Source: Actinophytocola xinjiangensis (lineage in GTDB: Bacteria > Actinomycetota > Actinomycetes > Mycobacteriales > Pseudonocardiaceae). From it: DNA of 64,000 nt. Positions 12,600 through 20,348 of this stretch are shown here, in pieces; position 1 is the stretch's first letter, and each line of letters opens with the position of its first letter. The DNA lies in contig NZ_MSIF01000006.1 in NCBI RefSeq assembly GCF_001921215.1, forward strand, positions 310,001 through 374,000, read 5' to 3'. A program made the position numbers and the translations under genes. The notes beneath the pieces were generated by a model. It was not told the origin of the DNA. It did no database searches and saw only the letters and a program-made list of their open reading frames with translations.

Positions 12600-13298
12600 T
12601 CAGAGGTTCCTCACGTCAGGGTGGTTCACGTACTCCACGCCCAGGTCGGCGAGTGTGCGGCGCAGGCCGTAACGATCCAGGCCCAGCTCACCGGCGGTGA
12701 GGGCCTCACGGGTCGCCTCCTCCGTGGCGACCCTGGCCCGCGCGGCCACCAGCGTCGCGGTGGCGGCGAGCCGGGGGACGCACAGCACGCCGTCGTCGTC
12801 GGCGAGCACCACGTCGCCGGGGCACACGGTCTGACCGCCGAGCACGACCGGCACGTTGACCGAGCCGGCGGCGGCCTTCACCGTGCCCTGCGCGCTGACC
12901 GACCCGGACCACGCGGGGAAGCCCATCGCCCGCAGCTCGGCGGTGTCCCGCACGCCGGCGGTGGTGACCACGCCGCGCACGCCCCGGTGGCGCAGCGCCG
13001 TGGCCAGCAGCTCGCCGAACGAGCCGTCGCGGGAGGGCGAGGTCGTGGTGACCACCAGGAGGTCCCCCGGGCGGCACTGCTCGACGGCCGCGTGGATCAT
13101 CAGGTTGTCGCCGGGCCGGCTGAGCACGGTCACCGCCGTGCCGGCGATCCGGGTGTCCCGCTGGACCGGGCGCAGGTCGGGGCCGAGGTAGCCGTCGCGG
13201 CCCAGCGCCTCGTGCACGGTGGCCACGCCGAGGACGGCGAGCGCGTCGACCTGCGCCATGGCCGCCCTGGGGTGGCCGGTCACCACCACGGTCCTCAT
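12600..13298 (-). CDS. galC: 4-carboxy-4-hydroxy-2-oxoadipate aldolase-like protein (RraA/HMG aldolase family)
   Basis: Class II pyruvate aldolase fold of 232 residues. It would cleave 4-carboxy-4-hydroxy-2-oxoadipate to pyruvate and oxaloacetate at the end of the gallate and 4,5-protocatechuate routes. The catalytic Arg-Asp pair is in AGVRDTAEL, and the family signatures GDxLxVT and PGDVVLADDDGVLCVP are present. The protein is longer than RraA (about 160 residues) and matches the aldolase length. Its ATG overlaps the stop of the LmbE-like gene (ATGA), so the two are coupled. The GalB-type neighbour is what favours the aldolase call over a generic RraA-like one. Confidence 0.68.
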   Translation of the reverse strand: MRTVVVTGHPRAAMAQVDALAVLGVATVHEALGRDGYLGPDLRPVQRDTRIAGTAVTVLSRPGDNLMIHAAVEQCRPGDLLVVTTTSPSRDGSFGELLATALRHRGVRGVVTTAGVRDTAELRAMGFPAWSGSVSAQGTVKAAAGSVNVPVVLGGQTVCPGDVVLADDDGVLCVPRLAATATLVAARARVATEEATREALTAGELGLDRYGLRRTLADLGVEYVNHPDVRNL

Positions 13299-14029
13299 GC
13301 CAGCACCCCGGTGACCTGCGGGTAGAGCCGGACGTAGGCCTCGGCCCTGGTGTCGTGCGGCAGGCCGAGGTTGGGGCCGGCGTTGCGCCGCAGCTGGACT
13401 CCGCGCCGGGTGGCCAGATCGGTGTAGTAGTCCCACATGTGCCGTTGCGCCGGCAGGCACTCCATGGCCGCGCGCTTGCGGTCGAACACGCCGGTGATGT
13501 CCAGCAGCACGTCCGGCCGGAACTCGCACTGTTCGGGCTGGTGCGGTTCGAACAGGAACACCGGCGGGGCGCCGAGCGGCTCGCCGGGGGCGTCGTAGCC
13601 GACGGCCTGGGCGAGCACCCGCGCCTGCAACGCCATCCGCGCGGCGGCCGGGTGGTCGCCGTTGTAGGGGTCGGCCAGGGCGTGGGTGAGGACGGTGGTC
13701 GGCGCCAGCTCGCGGTGGACGCGCACCAGCTGGTCGACGACCTCGGGGGTCTCGGGCAGCGGGTAGTCGCCGAGGTCGAGGAAGCGCACCTCGGCGCCGA
13801 GCGCGGCGGCGGCGTTCTCGGCCTCCTCGCGGCGGATCGCCTTGATCTCGGTGAGCGAGCGGCCCTCGCGCCAGGCGCGGGCGGACTCGCCGCGTTCGCC
13901 GAAGCTCAGGCACACCACCGTGACCCGTTCGCCCCGGGACGCCGCCAGGGCGATCGCCCCGCCCGCGCGCCACACGAAGTCGCCCGCATGGGCGCTGACC
14001 ACCAACAGGTTTCCCGGGTTGTCCGTCAC
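13295..14029 (-). CDS. galB: LmbE/PIG-L-family zinc hydrolase resembling 4-oxalomesaconate hydratase GalB
   Basis: Protein of 244 residues in the LmbE fold. Instead of the usual PHPDD metal motif it reads SAHAGDFVWRAGG, with His14 and Asp17 as metal ligands and GDHPAAA later. That variant is the one I associate with GalB of Pseudomonas putida, a zinc hydratase acting on 4-oxalomesaconate. The next gene encodes the aldolase that would use its product. A GTG at 14027-14029 is chosen; a TTG at 14044 would add five residues. No gallate dioxygenase or isomerase gene is in the window. De-acetylase function cannot be excluded. Confidence 0.65.
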   Translation of the reverse strand: MTDNPGNLLVVSAHAGDFVWRAGGAIALAASRGERVTVVCLSFGERGESARAWREGRSLTEIKAIRREEAENAAAALGAEVRFLDLGDYPLPETPEVVDQLVRVHRELAPTTVLTHALADPYNGDHPAAARMALQARVLAQAVGYDAPGEPLGAPPVFLFEPHQPEQCEFRPDVLLDITGVFDRKRAAMECLPAQRHMWDYYTDLATRRGVQLRRNAGPNLGLPHDTRAEAYVRLYPQVTGVLA

Positions 14030-14771: not shown

Positions 14772-16493
14772 TTACCGAAGGGTGCGGGTGCCGTCGGCGT
14801 GCCGGCGGGTGACCCGGCGGGCGTCGAGCAGCTCCAGCAGCGGCACCGCGACCCGGCGGGTGGTGCCCAGCGCCCGCCGGGCGTCGCTGACGGTGAACGG
14901 CGCCGCGATCCCGGCCAGAACCGTGGCGGCGCGGTCCGGGGCGTCGGCGGCCAGGACGACCGACCCGGCCAGCCGAACGAGCCGCCCGGCCCGTTCGGCC
15001 GCCGCGAGCTGACGCGGGCCGAGACCGAGCGCGGACAGGTCGGCCGCCTCCGGCGCGGTGAACGGCGCCCCGTCGAGCCGGGCCTCCACCGCCGCGACGG
15101 CCTCGGCGAGTTCGGCCGGCAGTCCCGCGACCGCGTCACCGGCCCGCACGAGTCCGTTGTGGACTGTCAGGCTGGTTTCGCGGATGGCTTGGCGCAGCAC
15201 GGGATCCGGCACGCCGAACTCGCGGCGCAGAGCCTCGATCGGCAGGCCGGCGGCGATCGGGTGACCGGCCGACCACGCGCGGAACCGGTCGGCGACCCGG
15301 CCGGGCAGCTCACCCAGCAACGTCTCGTCCACCGCCAGGTCCCCCACCGCGACCCCGACCGGCGGGTGGCCCAGCACCCGCAGCTGCGCCAACGGCACGA
15401 CACCGCGCCGCCGCAGGTACGCCGCCGCCGGATCGGCCAGGTCGACGACCCGCTGCCGGGCCGCCCCCCGGCCCGACAGAGGTGGCGGGCACGGGTCGAG
15501 CACCTCGACAGCGGCCAGGATCCGGTGCTCGCCGGGATCGCGCAGCAGGCCGATGTCCCCGGCCCGCAACGCGAGCCCGGACGCCAGCGCCAACCGGGCC
15601 GTGTCCGTCCCCAGTGGACGGACACGGCAGGGCACGGCCGCCGCGCCGACGTGCAGGACCAGAGACCGGCGCTGGGCGGAGTCCCCGCGCAGCCGCACGT
15701 CGATCTCGCCGGTCACGGGGAAGGCCGACGGGGTCAGCAGGGCGTCGCCGCGCCGGACCTCGTCCCGGTCCACGCCGCGCAGGTTCACCGCCACCCTGGC
15801 CACCGCCGCCACCTCCTCGCGCGGACGACCCAGCGCCTGGAGTCCCCGGACGACCACCCGCCGGCCACCGAGGTCGAGCTCGTCGCCGACGCGCAGGGTG
15901 CCGGCGCCGAGAGTGCCGGTCACCACCGTGCCGGCACCCCGGATGGTGAACGCGCGGTCCACCCACAGCCGCACGTCCGCGGCGCGGTCCGGGACGGGCA
16001 GGGCGGCGGTCAGCGCCAGCAGCTCCCGGCGCAGCTCCGGCAGGCCGGCACCGGTCCGGCCGCTCACCGCGACCGCGCGCACACCGGCCAGGCCGGTACC
16101 GGCGAGCTGTTCGCGGGCCAGGTCGGTGGCCGCCGCCGGGTCCGCGCGATCGGACTTGGTCACCACCAGCAGGCCGTGCCGCACGCCGAACGCGTCCAGC
16201 GCGGTGAGGTGCTCGGCCGACTGCTCCGCCCAGCCCTCGTCCGCGGCGACCACGAACATCGCGGCCGGTACCGGACCGGCGCCGGCCAACATGTTCGGCA
16301 CGAACCGCTCGTGTCCCGGGACGTCGACGAAGGCCAGGACCTGGTCGTCGAGCTCGGTCCAGGCGAACCCGAGGTCGATCGTCAGCCCGCGTCGGCGTTC
16401 CTCGGCGAGCCGGTCGGGTTCCATCCCGGTCAACGCGCGGACCAGCGTCGACTTGCCGTGGTCGACGTGGCCGGCGGTGGCGATCACGTGCAC
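14772..16493 (-). CDS. selB: Selenocysteine-specific translation elongation factor SelB
   Basis: GTPase of 573 residues that delivers Sec-tRNA to UGA codons marked by a SECIS hairpin. The N-terminal EF-Tu-like part has G1 GHVDHGKST (residues 8-16), G3 DVPGHERF and TKSD for the guanine site, followed by the beta-barrel domains (FTIRGAGTVVTGTL). The C-terminal part holds the winged helices that bind SECIS RNA. Bacterial SelB is typically about 580-630 residues, so it is full length. The GTG start lies only 12 bases after the tRNA-Sec CCA end, so selC and selB probably share a transcript. Finding selB with tRNA-Sec shows that this strain reads UGA as selenocysteine. Confidence 0.97.
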   Translation of the reverse strand: MHVIATAGHVDHGKSTLVRALTGMEPDRLAEERRRGLTIDLGFAWTELDDQVLAFVDVPGHERFVPNMLAGAGPVPAAMFVVAADEGWAEQSAEHLTALDAFGVRHGLLVVTKSDRADPAAATDLAREQLAGTGLAGVRAVAVSGRTGAGLPELRRELLALTAALPVPDRAADVRLWVDRAFTIRGAGTVVTGTLGAGTLRVGDELDLGGRRVVVRGLQALGRPREEVAAVARVAVNLRGVDRDEVRRGDALLTPSAFPVTGEIDVRLRGDSAQRRSLVLHVGAAAVPCRVRPLGTDTARLALASGLALRAGDIGLLRDPGEHRILAAVEVLDPCPPPLSGRGAARQRVVDLADPAAAYLRRRGVVPLAQLRVLGHPPVGVAVGDLAVDETLLGELPGRVADRFRAWSAGHPIAAGLPIEALRREFGVPDPVLRQAIRETSLTVHNGLVRAGDAVAGLPAELAEAVAAVEARLDGAPFTAPEAADLSALGLGPRQLAAAERAGRLVRLAGSVVLAADAPDRAATVLAGIAAPFTVSDARRALGTTRRVAVPLLELLDARRVTRRHADGTRTLR

Positions 16494-16505
16494 GGGCGGA
16501 CGTCC

Positions 16506-16600
16506 TGGCGGAGGCGAACGGGAATCGAACCCGCCAACGGCAGTGCCTGCCGTTCAACGATGTTGAAGACCGCGCCGGTCACCAGGCCGGAAGCGCCTCC
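16506..16600 (-). tRNA. selC: tRNA-Sec with UCA anticodon
   Basis: A 95-base tRNA read on the minus strand from GGAGGCG at 16600 to an encoded GCCA at 16509-16506. The acceptor has seven Watson-Crick pairs plus a C/T at the eighth position. The anticodon loop reads CTTCAAC with anticodon TCA. A very long variable arm (ACGGCAG-GCA-CTGCCGT) and a T arm with GGTTCGATTCC are present. The length, long extra arm and UCA anticodon are diagnostic of selenocysteine tRNA. It lies directly upstream of selB on the same strand and divergent from the AhpD-like selenoprotein gene. Confidence 0.97.
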
Positions 16601-16643
16601 CCTGGACATGACGATCATCCTCGCAGAAGCCGGCCGTTTCCCG

Positions 16644-16649
16644 TAACCT
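16644..16649 (+). promoter_or_regulatory. Probable -10 element giving a leaderless selenoprotein mRNA
   Basis: TAACCT fits the actinobacterial -10 pattern TANNNT, and 7 bases separate it from the ATG at 16657. No ribosome-binding sequence precedes that ATG. Transcription would therefore begin at or next to the start codon. Confidence 0.55.
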
Positions 16650-16656
16650 CCACGGC

Positions 16657-17667
16657 ATGGCGTGGTTGACGACCATCCCGAGGAGCGAGGCGACCGGCGA
16701 GCTGGCGCGGACCTACGAGGCCATGGCCGCCCGCCCCATCCCGGACGCCTACCAGCCGCCGCACGGCGACGCACCGGGGATCATCCGCGCGCACAGCCTC
16801 GACCCGGAGCTGATGCGGCTCACCTTCGGGGTGTCCGGCGCGCTGCACCGCTCGACGCTGAGCTGGGCGGACCGGGAGCTGATCTCCAGCGTCACCTCCC
16901 GCACCAACCAGTGCTTCTATTGAACATCGGCTCACGCGGAGTTTCTGCGTGTCGCTTCCGGTGACCCCGCCCTGGCGGAAACCGTGCTCACCCGCGCTGA
17001 TGAGAGCCTGTCCGCGCGCGAGGCCGTCCTGGCGCGCTACGCCGCCGCGCTGACCGCGGCGCCGTGGTCGATCACACCCGCGTTCGCCGAGCAGTTCGCC
17101 GCCCACGGCCTCGACGGGGACGCCGTCCAGGCCGCGACCGGCGTGGTCGCCATGTTCAACTACCTGACCAGGGTCGCCGACGCCACCGGCATCGACTTCG
17201 ACTACGCCTCGCCGCTGCCGGTGTTCCAGCCCGACCGCGACCGGGACCCGACCCCGCGCCCCGCCCGGCGGCACTGGCCGTCGGTGGCCGGCGAGGACCG
17301 CACGCTGCCCGCGTTCCCGGACCTCGGCCAGGCCTGGCAGCGCTGGCGCACGCACGTGTTCGACACCGACGAGCCGCTGACCGGCCGCGAACGCCGGCTG
17401 CTGGCCGCCGCGGCCGCCCAGGAGTCCTGCGACCGCACCCGCGCCGAGGACCTGGCCGACACGGTCCCCGGCGACGACCGCGAGTCCCTGCTGGACACCT
17501 TCGCCCGCCGGCTCTCCCGCCAGCCGTGGCGGATGACCCCGGCCGACCTGGACGGTCTGCGCGCCGCCGGCTACCCCGAACCCGCGCTGCTGCACGTGAT
17601 CTCGGTGGTGGCGCTGCAGAACGCCGAGTCCCGCCTGGCCATGGGCCACGCCCTCACCCGCCGCTGA
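16657..17667 (+). CDS. AhpD-like selenoprotein with in-frame TGA read as selenocysteine (Sec89)
   Basis: Read through the TGA at 16921-16923 the gene encodes 336 residues with two carboxymuconolactone-decarboxylase/AhpD-like domains. The first has the redox motif C86-F-Y-U89-T-S-A-H93, matching the AhpD pattern CxxCxxxH with the second cysteine replaced by Sec. The frame continues without shift for 248 codons after the TGA, with domain sequence on both sides. The second domain (about 235-335) lacks a CxxC. A SECIS-like hairpin follows the TGA, and selB plus tRNA-Sec lie divergently next door. Expected role: thiol- or hydroperoxide-dependent oxidoreductase. An automatic call would split it at 16923 and 16984. 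It overlaps the convergent gene by 14 bases. Confidence 0.92.
16933..16951 (+). promoter_or_regulatory. SECIS-like hairpin downstream of the Sec codon
   Basis: The arms CACGC (16933-16937) and GCGTG (16947-16951) pair, extended by a G-T wobble and two inner pairs to an 8-pair stem with loop GTT. The loop begins with G and lies 17 bases after the TGA, within the spacing and loop rules I recall for bacterial SECIS elements (G in the first two loop positions, 16-37 bases from UGA). It codes for AHAEFLRVA with unusually AT-ending codons (GCT, TTT, CGT, GCT). Confidence 0.8.
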
Positions 17668-18805
17668 GGCGCGACCGGGCGCGGTAGTGGTCCAGGACGT
17701 CCTGGCGCAACAGCGCCCCGAAGCCGGCCGACGCGATCCGCTGGCCGAGCTGGGCCGGCGACACGCCCAGCGCGGTCGCCGTCGCGGCCACGTTCCAGTC
17801 GTGGGAGGCGAGTTGGTTGAGCAGATGGCCCCGACGGGCCTGGTTCTCCGACAGGCGGAAGGTCTTGAGGTAGGCGGTGCGGCCCCGGCGGTCGGTGATC
17901 AGCTCACCGAGGTGGTTGGGTTCGCCGAGCCGGAAACCGGGCAGGAACCGGGACAGCGTGAACTCGCCCAGGCGGTACACCCGGCGCACGTCGTAGCTCG
18001 GCTCCAGCAGTTCGGCGGCCATCACCGAGTCGTGGAACTCCGTCCACTCGCCACGCTGCCGGTCGGCCGCCGCGCGCAGATCGGCGAGCGTGCGGACGTG
18101 GGTGCCGCTGATCGCCGCCCGGAACTCGGGCACCGGCCGGCCGAACAGGCCGTAGTGGTGGACCAGCTCACCGAACAGGTCCTGCACCAGGCTCGGGTGC
18201 AGGGCGCGGTAGTCGTCGGGGTGGGGCACCACGAACGCCGCCGCCAGCGCGTCCGCGACGTAGCAGAGCACGCCGCACTGGCCGGGGTGGATCTCGAACA
18301 CCCGCAGCGCGTCGGCCAGGTCCCGGATCTCCGCGCCCCGGTAGGCCTGTTCCTCGCGCGGCGAGAGCCCCCGGGACACCGCGCGCCGCGACCACTCGTC
18401 CCAGACGACCGTCGGGCCGCCGAAGTGCAGGGCCAGGTAGCCCTGCAGGGCCAGGTGCAGCGGCAGGAACCGCAGCCGGCCGCGCTCCACCCGCCTGGCC
18501 ATCCGGCGCTGCAGGCGCAGCGGCAGGCAGTCGATCGTCGTCGAGTCGTCGTCCTTGGTCAGCTGGGTGCCGTAGGCGGCGGCGAGGGTGTCGTCGGCGC
18601 CCCAGGCGGCGACGAACCCGTGCGGGACGTAGCTGGCGTAGTAGTGGCGCGCGTCCACCGCGACGACGGCGGTCTCGGTCTCGTAGGCGTGGCGGTGCAG
18701 CCGAAGGCCGACGACCGGACGGTCCCGGACCAGTGGCACCAGCCGCACCCCGCCCCACACCTGGGACGGGCCGGCGGTCAGCCCGTCGAGGCTCAGGCCG
18801 GTCAT
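17654..18805 (-). CDS. Uncharacterised protein coupled to a TROVE/vWA-like protein
   Basis: I cannot assign a function to this 383-residue protein. The N-terminal half begins PSQVWGGVRLVPLVRD and is beta-rich with conserved-looking RLHRHAYETETAVVAVDARHYYASYVPHG sequence; I tentatively connect it with the ARPP-2-like proteins described beside Ro/TROVE genes, but cannot confirm this. The last 60 residues contain a Fis-like helix-turn-helix (HDWNVAATATALGVSPAQLGQRI), suggesting nucleic-acid binding. The ATG overlaps the stop of the upstream gene (ATGA), so the two products are made together. Its end overlaps the selenoprotein gene by 14 bases on the other strand. Confidence 0.7.
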   Translation of the reverse strand: MTGLSLDGLTAGPSQVWGGVRLVPLVRDRPVVGLRLHRHAYETETAVVAVDARHYYASYVPHGFVAAWGADDTLAAAYGTQLTKDDDSTTIDCLPLRLQRRMARRVERGRLRFLPLHLALQGYLALHFGGPTVVWDEWSRRAVSRGLSPREEQAYRGAEIRDLADALRVFEIHPGQCGVLCYVADALAAAFVVPHPDDYRALHPSLVQDLFGELVHHYGLFGRPVPEFRAAISGTHVRTLADLRAAADRQRGEWTEFHDSVMAAELLEPSYDVRRVYRLGEFTLSRFLPGFRLGEPNHLGELITDRRGRTAYLKTFRLSENQARRGHLLNQLASHDWNVAATATALGVSPAQLGQRIASAGFGALLRQDVLDHYRARSRLSGG

Positions 18806-20208
18806 CGGGCCGGCCCCGCGAACCGGGCGACCCGCTGGTCGAGGTAGGACCGCAGCCGGTCGAGGTCGCCGGTGCCGGCGGCCAGCCCGGCGAACTCCAC
18901 CAGCGCCGGGAGGTCCTCGGCGTTGCGCACACCCACGGTCGGCACCCCGGCGCAGAGCCGGTGCACGTCGAAGTCGTCGGCGTCGTAGACCGGGTTGAGG
19001 TGCACCACGGCCGTGCGGCCGTCGGGGTCCAGGCGCTCGCGCCACACCCGCAGCACCTCGGCGGCCAGCCCCGGCGGGGCGTTGTCCCAGCCGTCGGACA
19101 CGATCAGCAGCCGGTCCGGGGCGTGGTCGAGGGCGTCGAGCACGCGCTCACCGAGCGGGGTCGGGCCGAACGGGTGGAGCAGCAACGCGTCGGTCCGCCC
19201 GGAGGTCCACAGTGGAACGTAGGTCGTCGCCAGGGCCTCGCACAGGAAGTGCGCGGCCAACGCGACGGCCAGCGGGCGGCGACGCTTGTGGGTCGAGCCG
19301 ATCGAGGAGAAGCTGTCGTCGAGCACGGCGGCCACCCGGCCCCAGCGTCCGGCGTGCTCACCGGCGACCCGCCGCGCGGCGACGCGCAGCGCACCGGTCA
19401 GCTCGGCCCGCCGCAGGGCACGGTCGTCGCCGGGCAGCGACAGCACGTAGGACGCGAGCCTGGTCAACGGCATGGTGTCCAGGTCGGGCGCGACCCCGAC
19501 ACCCGCCCGGGCGGCGGACTCGCGCAGCCGCAGCCGCTCCAGGCGGGTCATCGTCGGCGTGGCACGCTCCAGGAACGTCGCCCGGTCGATGCCGTGCCTG
19601 GCCGCGAACCCCTCGGCGACGGTGAACGGCAGTTCGTAGACAGCGCTCCGCTCGTGGTGCGCGCGCCGCCACGCGTCCAGGATCGGCGTGGCGTAACGAC
19701 TCTGGCGGCGCGGGGCGAACAGGAACGGGCCGAGTTCGGCCGGCGGCGCGAGGTGGGTGTGGCGCACCGTGTCCCTGACCGCGCCCCGGTACTTCACCGC
19801 GTCGAACGCCAGGTCCGGCCGGGCGGCCAGCCAGTCGCGAACGACGGCCCTGGTCAGCCGGTTGTTCACCCGCGCGCGGCGCAGCGAGCGGAACAGGTCG
19901 TAGACCCGCTGGGGCGGCGTCACCGCCAGCCGCGCGGCGATCAGCCGGCCCTCGCGGCGCCGCTCGTCGGGGGTCGTCGTGCCGGGGTCGGCCAGCAGGC
20001 GCGCCACGATCATCGCGGCGTTGTGGTCGTTGACGTCCAGGGCGAGGGTCGCCGCGTAGAGGTCGCGGTAGTTGCCGAGCAGGTAGTCGTGCAGGAACTC
20101 CAGCGACAGCCGCTGGGTGCCGGCGTCCGCGCGGAACTCCCGCTGGCCGGTCGCGGTGATCGCCGCGTTCACGAACAGCAGCAGGTCCGACGCGGCGAGG
20201 GTGTCCAT
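18802..20208 (-). CDS. Ro60-like protein: TROVE-type helical domain plus vWA domain
   Basis: Protein of 468 residues. The first 240 residues are alpha-helical repeats resembling the TROVE module of Ro60 (AVKYRGAVRDTVRHTHL compares with the KYR...RDLLRLSH segment). The C-terminal part is a von Willebrand A fold with a MIDAS-like site (LDDSFSS), a second motif LLIVSDGWDN, and a Rossmann-like end. Bacterial Ro proteins bind Y-RNAs and act in RNA quality control with PNPase or RtcB. No RtcB or obvious Y RNA was seen nearby. The ATG at 20206-20208 follows AGGAGG directly. It overlaps the next gene by four bases. Confidence 0.68.
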   Translation of the reverse strand: MDTLAASDLLLFVNAAITATGQREFRADAGTQRLSLEFLHDYLLGNYRDLYAATLALDVNDHNAAMIVARLLADPGTTTPDERRREGRLIAARLAVTPPQRVYDLFRSLRRARVNNRLTRAVVRDWLAARPDLAFDAVKYRGAVRDTVRHTHLAPPAELGPFLFAPRRQSRYATPILDAWRRAHHERSAVYELPFTVAEGFAARHGIDRATFLERATPTMTRLERLRLRESAARAGVGVAPDLDTMPLTRLASYVLSLPGDDRALRRAELTGALRVAARRVAGEHAGRWGRVAAVLDDSFSSIGSTHKRRRPLAVALAAHFLCEALATTYVPLWTSGRTDALLLHPFGPTPLGERVLDALDHAPDRLLIVSDGWDNAPPGLAAEVLRVWRERLDPDGRTAVVHLNPVYDADDFDVHRLCAGVPTVGVRNAEDLPALVEFAGLAAGTGDLDRLRSYLDQRVARFAGPAR

Positions 20209-20348
20209 CACTCCTCCTGGACGGGCGAACGAGAACGTGGGCGCCGGCCGGGGAATGGGGGTGCGATCAGCGAATCATCGCTTCAGAGGCGGGTTCCGGA
20301 AGTCGCACCGGAGTCCCACGGCCGGCGCCAGGACAGTAGCAACCGGGA

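Follow-up and report, generated by a model that had tools for sequence, protein, structure and literature searches.

The plus-strand frame at 16657-17667 of the window (the whole 64,000-nucleotide stretch of Actinophytocola xinjiangensis DNA that was analyzed) raises the question of whether its only internal stop codon ends a protein or specifies an amino acid. Translation placed a single internal TGA at codon 89 (16921-16923), with a second TGA as the final stop (17665-17667). The first-pass annotation had proposed that the internal TGA lies at the second redox cysteine of an AhpD/carboxymuconolactone decarboxylase (CMD) motif, with domain sequence on both sides. We found that it occupies codon 89 in the active-site motif C86-F-Y-U89-T-S-A-H93, in which selenocysteine (Sec) would replace the second Cys of CxxCxxxH. 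Furthermore, the Pfam CMD match spans residues 50-106 through the Sec, with an E value of 1.1e-10 for the whole protein compared to 3.8e-4 for residues 1-88 alone. Based on the frame and on full-length orthologues that read alike, the predicted coding sequence (16657-17667, plus strand) specifies 336 amino acids with Sec at residue 89. We consider it highly probable that the gene of this soil actinomycete encodes a 336-residue selenoprotein in which the UGA at 16921 is decoded as Sec under the guidance of a SECIS element, and which is built of tandem AhpD-like domains and, judged by homology, acts as a redox enzyme. At the level of sequence, the reading frame, the exchange of TGA for Cys codons, a conserved hairpin, the decoding machinery and a domain duplication all argue for this reading. 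The list of open reading frames in the window (minimum 90 amino acids) shows only the later piece of this frame, at 16984-17667. Since a gene caller that halts at UGA would split the gene or start it late, its annotations are probably missing or wrong.

The identity of the codon at this site in homologues points to Sec insertion at residue 89. Full-length orthologues with one TGA inside each are present in a genome of the same genus (G094, 69% identical), in G030 (66%), and in G349 and G445 (48-49%). A single-protein search found no relatives in the genome-contig collection; a scan with a five-row alignment gave 15 loci, from Actinomycetota, Polyangiaceae (Myxococcota), Planctomycetota metagenome-assembled genomes (MAGs) and one MAG labelled Proteobacteria, and all 15 have TGA at the site. 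Among 163 genomes drawn from the class of Minicystis, 27 had matches at 1e-25. All 10 of the full-length matches contained the TGA, two of them (L133 and L134) being repeats of earlier genes (L053 and L058), and the 27 loci read from this draw comprised 25 with TGA at the site and 2 with TGC. By contrast, all 34 mostly more distant homologues, namely 32 loci among the many more matches listed together with the two TGC loci, have a Cys codon (TGC or TGT) aligned with residue 89, in a motif that was picked by a pattern allowing Ser as well as Cys or Sec at that position and that may be incidental in the weak matches L004-L006. Cys homologues aligned at this residue were what the first-pass annotation had suggested looking for. 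The TGA is thus kept in homologues that are approximately 31-69% identical and belong to several phyla (16921-16923 in the window, plus strand). Neither homologues ending at residue 88 nor a loss of conservation after the TGA, outcomes that had been named as counting against Sec, was seen: no homologue read stops at the TGA, and of 124 columns invariant among five orthologues 47 precede residue 89 and 76 follow it. A lone stop in an otherwise open frame would also fit a fresh pseudogene or a sequencing error, whereby mutation or misreading turned a sense codon into TGA in a gene that is now dead or has been split, but because the TGA is common to separately sequenced genomes that are 69, 66 and 49% identical and to Myxococcota, with coding conserved past it and extra constraint on the hairpin codons described below, we set this reading aside as exceedingly improbable.

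The full-length gene is sparsely distributed. In a draw of 297 genomes from the family, 175 had some match at 1e-5 and only 3 had the full-length form, while selB scored above its cut-off in 154, indicating that Sec decoding is common in the family and the AhpD-like gene rare. At the level of the order, 4 of 397 genomes matched at 1e-20. Three of the 396 genomes drawn from the phylum matched at 1e-25: the host genome itself and two with single-domain Sec proteins. Two patterns gave no matches in viral contigs, and among plasmids 5 records matched, none of which covered 80% of the query.

If the UGA is decoded as Sec, a SECIS element should guide insertion. A SECIS-like hairpin had been claimed to follow the TGA, and we located one at 16933-16951 (plus strand), starting 9 nt after the TGA and within the coding sequence: CACGCGGA-GUU-UCUGCGUG, an 8-bp stem with the loop GUU at 16941-16943. 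According to the accessible text of a 2026 review (PMC13188914), bacterial SECIS elements have a loop of 3-9 nt, a stem of 4-16 bp, a G among the first two loop nucleotides, a distance of 16-37 nt from the UGA and a minimum free energy (MFE) of -7.5 or lower. The hairpin has a 3-nt loop that starts with G, an 8-bp stem, a UGA-to-loop distance of 17 nt and an MFE of -14.0, and lies within every one of these published limits. Judged by fold energy only, the window hairpin does not stand out (z of -2.0, with 8 of 200 shuffles folding as well); the z values at five other loci were -4.1, -2.2, -3.3, -3.6 and -2.5. Constraint at the codon level, on the other hand, is strong evidence for the hairpin. 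Over 12 rows, which omit L051 as a near copy of L049, codons 92-99 had a mean pairwise identity of 0.924 compared to 0.517 for 89 other conserved columns, a value reached by none of 100000 random draws. All 12 rows encode Phe96 as TTT, and the hairpin contains codons that are rare in the host: TTT accounts for 1 of 73 Phe codons (counted in eight family-supported window genes and in the AhpD-like gene outside the hairpin, and excluding ORF 12600-13973, which is probably no gene), GCT for 5 of 431 and CGT for 13 of 286. The change of GCA to GCG in the window converts an A-U pair to G-U. No two-sided base changes supporting the stem were seen in the aligned loci; the hairpin is too invariant for them, and the stem therefore rests on geometry and codon constraint rather than on covariation.

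The same hairpin recurs across the two-domain genes. Of 23 two-domain loci, 19 have the 19-mer unchanged and none departs from it by more than one mismatch, a count that starts from 24 candidates, leaves out L143 with its short upstream frame (one mismatch in the hairpin) and includes L059, whose match ends at residue 107 and whose two-domain status is putative. In the window, the only match to the 19-mer at three or fewer mismatches is the hairpin itself, with 0.04 expected. The loci of the 15-locus scan were selected on the peptides AHAEFLRV and RxNxCFYC, such that identity of the peptide, and not of the codons, was partly selected; the profile-selected loci L135-L142 gave 6 exact hairpins and 2 with one mismatch. 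Cys homologues often read AHGAILR, indicating that part of the peptide in the hairpin region reflects constraint on the protein. Accordingly, the proposal that the hairpin alone sets this peptide was only partly supported. Among 20 other Sec loci, in which two domains were not demonstrated, 4 have the hairpin within one mismatch (L060, which is cut by the end of its contig, L061, L160 and L146) and 16 differ by 6-11 bases. Twelve of those 16 fold a hairpin roughly 8 nt further downstream, GACCUCCG...GAGGUC. In the class of Minicystis, 12 single-domain Sec AhpD genes (L145, L147-L155, L158 and L159) share a hairpin, GACCTCCG...GAGGTC, that mostly lies over the peptide DDLRxEV and is apparently a second conserved type of SECIS.

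Sec decoding also requires selA, selB, selC and selD, and all four are present in the host genome. The gene for tRNA-Sec, selC, lies at 16506-16600 on the minus strand; ARAGORN assigned it the anticodon TCA and it scored 69.2 bits with Rfam RF01852 against a gathering score of 47. Next to it, the minus-strand frame at 14772-16493 encodes a 573-residue Sec-specific elongation factor, SelB (TIGR00475, 281 bits; cut-off 242). Both genes are upstream of the AhpD-like gene and divergent from it, in agreement with what had been noted from the sequence. On another contig of this 9.5-Mb genome, selA and selD score above their cut-offs and lie side by side and divergent; the window itself has a G+C content of 72%. 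In the mechanism we favor, ribosomes would read the UGA at 16921 as Sec using the tRNA-Sec, SelB, SelA and SelD of the host, with insertion guided by the putative SECIS hairpin that begins 9 nt downstream of the UGA inside the coding sequence. Across genomes with a Sec AhpD homologue, selB was above its cut-off in 17 of 19, compared to 2 of 14 controls, and RF01852 passed in 19 of 19, compared to 5 of 14 controls, so a borderline RF01852 match proves little. This bears on two Streptosporangiaceae MAGs (G1327 with L049 and G1328 with L051) in which the TGA gene and the hairpin are present, selB was not above its cut-off and RF01852 was borderline (49.4 and 47.6, against 47): either these are incomplete bins or they hold TGA genes in genomes that lack Sec decoding.

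Readthrough of UGA is known in bacteria generally, and low-level insertion of another amino acid, for example Trp, could give a regulated long form that contains no selenium. We regard this as very unlikely here, as the site aligns with a catalytic Cys in 34 of 34 homologues, the hairpin has SECIS geometry, tRNA-Sec and selB adjoin the gene, and selA and selD are in the genome. Turning back to Sec decoding, no formate dehydrogenase (TIGR01553) scored above the cut-off in the host genome and none of 8 weaker matches had a stop within it. The AhpD-like gene may therefore be a main client of the host's Sec machinery, with other clients possible. It would add a client besides formate dehydrogenase, Sec-containing forms of which are reported, in the accessible text of PMC7176365, for another actinobacterium, DSM 45062.

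The first-pass annotation had judged a protein with this architecture, encoded next to selB and selC in an actinomycete, to be unusual. The adjacency to selB and selC holds in the window. The protein itself, however, is also encoded in Myxococcota and in further Actinomycetota; no tRNA-Sec or SelB was found in the available flanks of the 14 other two-domain loci checked, a set to which L135-L142 do not belong. A distant member of the phylum (L063; G1069:C1:310260-310781 and 311646-311737) has a single-domain CHYU AhpD-like Sec gene that adjoins tRNA-Sec and selB and whose sequence after the TGA differs from that of the window gene.

The region around the start codon contains a possible -10 element, TAACCT (16644-16649, plus strand; TANNNT pattern), 7 nt before the ATG. 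Of 14 given positions, 9 are preceded by TANNNT at a distance of 5-9 nt, as are 9 of 12 true start codons once L057 and L058, whose positions are match ends, are removed, against a background of 0.7% and with several rows being close kin. This spacing hints at leaderless mRNAs, and transcripts of the AhpD-like gene are possibly leaderless. No match to a sigma-70 consensus was found in 16400-17900. Over 17 loci, we found no conserved neighbors: the shared ORFs were the gene itself, antisense frames, synteny among close kin (L049/L051, L054-L056 and L044/L045) and three single pairs (window/L043, L044/L048 and L056/L058). Beyond pairs of loci or close kin, none of these 17 loci has a neighbor that points to a substrate. 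Just downstream of the Sec gene in L049 (7237-7665) and L051 (7138-7563), on the opposite strand, lies a second AhpD homologue with about 31% identity. The window also encodes, at 17654-18808 on the minus strand, a protein with an ARPP-2 domain (Pfam PF22549, E 4e-132), and its gene is adjoined by an ORF of 469 amino acids without a Pfam match (18802-20211, minus strand).

Two AhpD domains had been proposed, with Sec in the first only, and the Cys/Sec pair is indeed confined to the first domain. Profile matches assign the N-terminal AhpD/CMD domain (TIGR01926) to 16657-17208 of the plus strand, the end being approximate, with the Cys86/Tyr88/Sec89/His93 site. Profile-profile comparison assigns a degenerate AhpD-like domain that lacks the CxxC/U and the His to 17320-17664 of the plus strand, the start being approximate. 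The two domain profiles match each other with a probability of 98.8 and an E value of 1.4e-16, and the C-terminal profile retrieves AhpD structures that are also found with the N-terminal one, with an E value of 2.1e-18 for PDB 6k40. Residues 222-336 have no Pfam match; TIGR04029 matches residues 281-332 weakly (8e-5). The active-site segment is absent from the second copy in 12 of 13 aligned rows. In L057, from Acidimicrobiia, the second copy reads NYCSYSDYW, which is perhaps an intermediate state. By these profile comparisons, the protein is a tandem duplication, in which the first AhpD-like (CMD, TIGR01926) copy carries the predicted Cys-x-Tyr-Sec-x-x-x-His site and the second copy has lost it. 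In a tree that leaves out some copies, contains three long branches and is midpoint-rooted for drawing, the 22 rows labelled two-domain and L060, which the contig end truncates after the first domain, formed one group with support of 100/96 (L049 and L051 being near copies), adjoined with weaker support (89/74) by three single-domain Sec proteins whose genes contain the same hairpin. The simplest reading is a single duplication in a Sec lineage that already bore this hairpin.

Membership in the AhpD family is consistent with a redox function. The window protein passes the TIGR01926 test (123.7 bits against 81.8), as do 5 of 6 kin, with L058 below it at 78.3. All 13 members match TIGR01926, TIGR04030, NF041238 and ahpD_dom at 1e-3. 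Reported roles of AhpD, in the accessible text of PMC8945050, are to pass electrons on from lipoyl systems, with AhpC or OsmC as the acceptors, and to act on organic peroxides directly, and the same text describes an AhpD homologue of D. radiodurans that protects against H2O2 and in which the CxxC matters. The Deinococcus AhpD (PDB 6k40) and Ralstonia 2prr are among the solved structures nearest in sequence to both domains; both are single-domain, and in the alignment 6k40 has Cys where the window protein has Sec. By homology, the protein would be an organic-hydroperoxide reductase or a thiol-disulfide oxidoreductase; peroxidase activity is predicted from sequence. Sec89 and Cys86 would cycle as a selenenyl-sulfide redox pair with His93 as the predicted base, and the C-terminal domain is probably a structural or regulatory partner.

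AhpD-like selenoproteins had been noted as already reported in bacteria, and they are in print. The accessible text of PMC2398784, PMC1088965 and PMC13188914 lists proteins from the Sargasso Sea and GOS (TIGR01926/COG2128/pfam02627, CxxU), which share with the window protein the domain family, the CxxU motif and Sec at the second position. Those listings give motifs and, in the text accessible, make no mention of a second, degenerate domain of the kind that the window protein has. One profile bears directly on them. NF041238 (AhpD_rel_CFYUT), called Sargasso hypothetical protein 1 in the accessible text of PMC13188914, has CFYUT in its name, 357 positions and the NCBI description "(seleno)protein", and it matches the window protein over the Sec domain. 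Nonetheless, the window protein scored 85.1 bits against a threshold of 175 and six kin scored 55-83; across the class, 0 of 394 genomes, the host's own included, matched at 1e-20. The Sec domain of the window protein maps to profile positions 151-337, which places it towards the C-terminal end of the profile, whereas in the window protein it is N-terminal. In the accessible open-licence literature, we found no description of the two-domain Sec AhpD clade or of its SECIS fixed across phyla. Proteins from different phyla that are 35-69% identical to that of the window share this one hairpin almost unchanged in their genes, and the hairpin therefore offers a clean test bed for the recognition needs of SelB and for whether an RNA signal can hold protein sequence in place.

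Among known systems, the sestrins are alike in design. In the accessible text of PMC4674687, sestrin 2 has two homologous AhpD-like domains, of which only the first carries the catalytic C125/Y127/H132, and its authors overlay the two domains on the 2PRR dimer. The spacing of these residues (Cys, Tyr at +2, His at +7) is that of C86/Y88/H93, and both proteins have tandem AhpD-like domains in like order with only the first active. Sestrins (PF04636) differ, on that account, in being eukaryotic, in lacking Sec and in having an extra Sesn-B. Searches with the family profiles retrieved sestrin 2 chains at E values of 3e-5 to 7e-5. We considered a special kinship with sestrins and rejected it. The window protein has no match to PF04636 (PA26) at an E value of 1 or below. 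Five of 13 members do, the best at 2.3e-4, and of 10 kin scanned singly 3 match in the N-terminal domain at no more than 20.4, against a gathering cut-off of 29.4. Single-domain bacterial controls were as strong or stronger (8 of 9 match, up to 26.0, best 5.6e-6). As the PA26 similarity is weak and common to single-domain homologues, special kinship is unsupported, and the likeness of design is probably convergent.

The parallel nevertheless frames the alternative to a peroxidase that survives best: a Sec-containing thiol-disulfide oxidoreductase or redox sensor whose inactive C-terminal domain signals, like Sesn-C in sestrins. All 13 aligned members retain the C-terminal domain but have lost its site, and sestrin 2 likewise pairs an active first domain with a second that has no site (PMC4674687, accessible text). 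Against this, no partner gene or regulator is conserved beside the AhpD-like gene, and the PA26 similarity described above gives no sign of sestrin descent. We therefore consider a sensor possible but rather unlikely, and continue to favor a redox enzyme of the AhpD type. A broader proposal, which we offer tentatively and consider unlikely to hold in all its parts, is that the tandem-AhpD Sec proteins form a distinct clade that spans Actinomycetota, Myxococcota and probably further phyla. In this clade, the near-fixed SECIS would help dictate the codons and the peptide AHAEFLRV, and the inactive second domain would serve as a sensor or regulator. Should this be true, the clade would represent a bacterial, selenium-based counterpart of the sestrin design.
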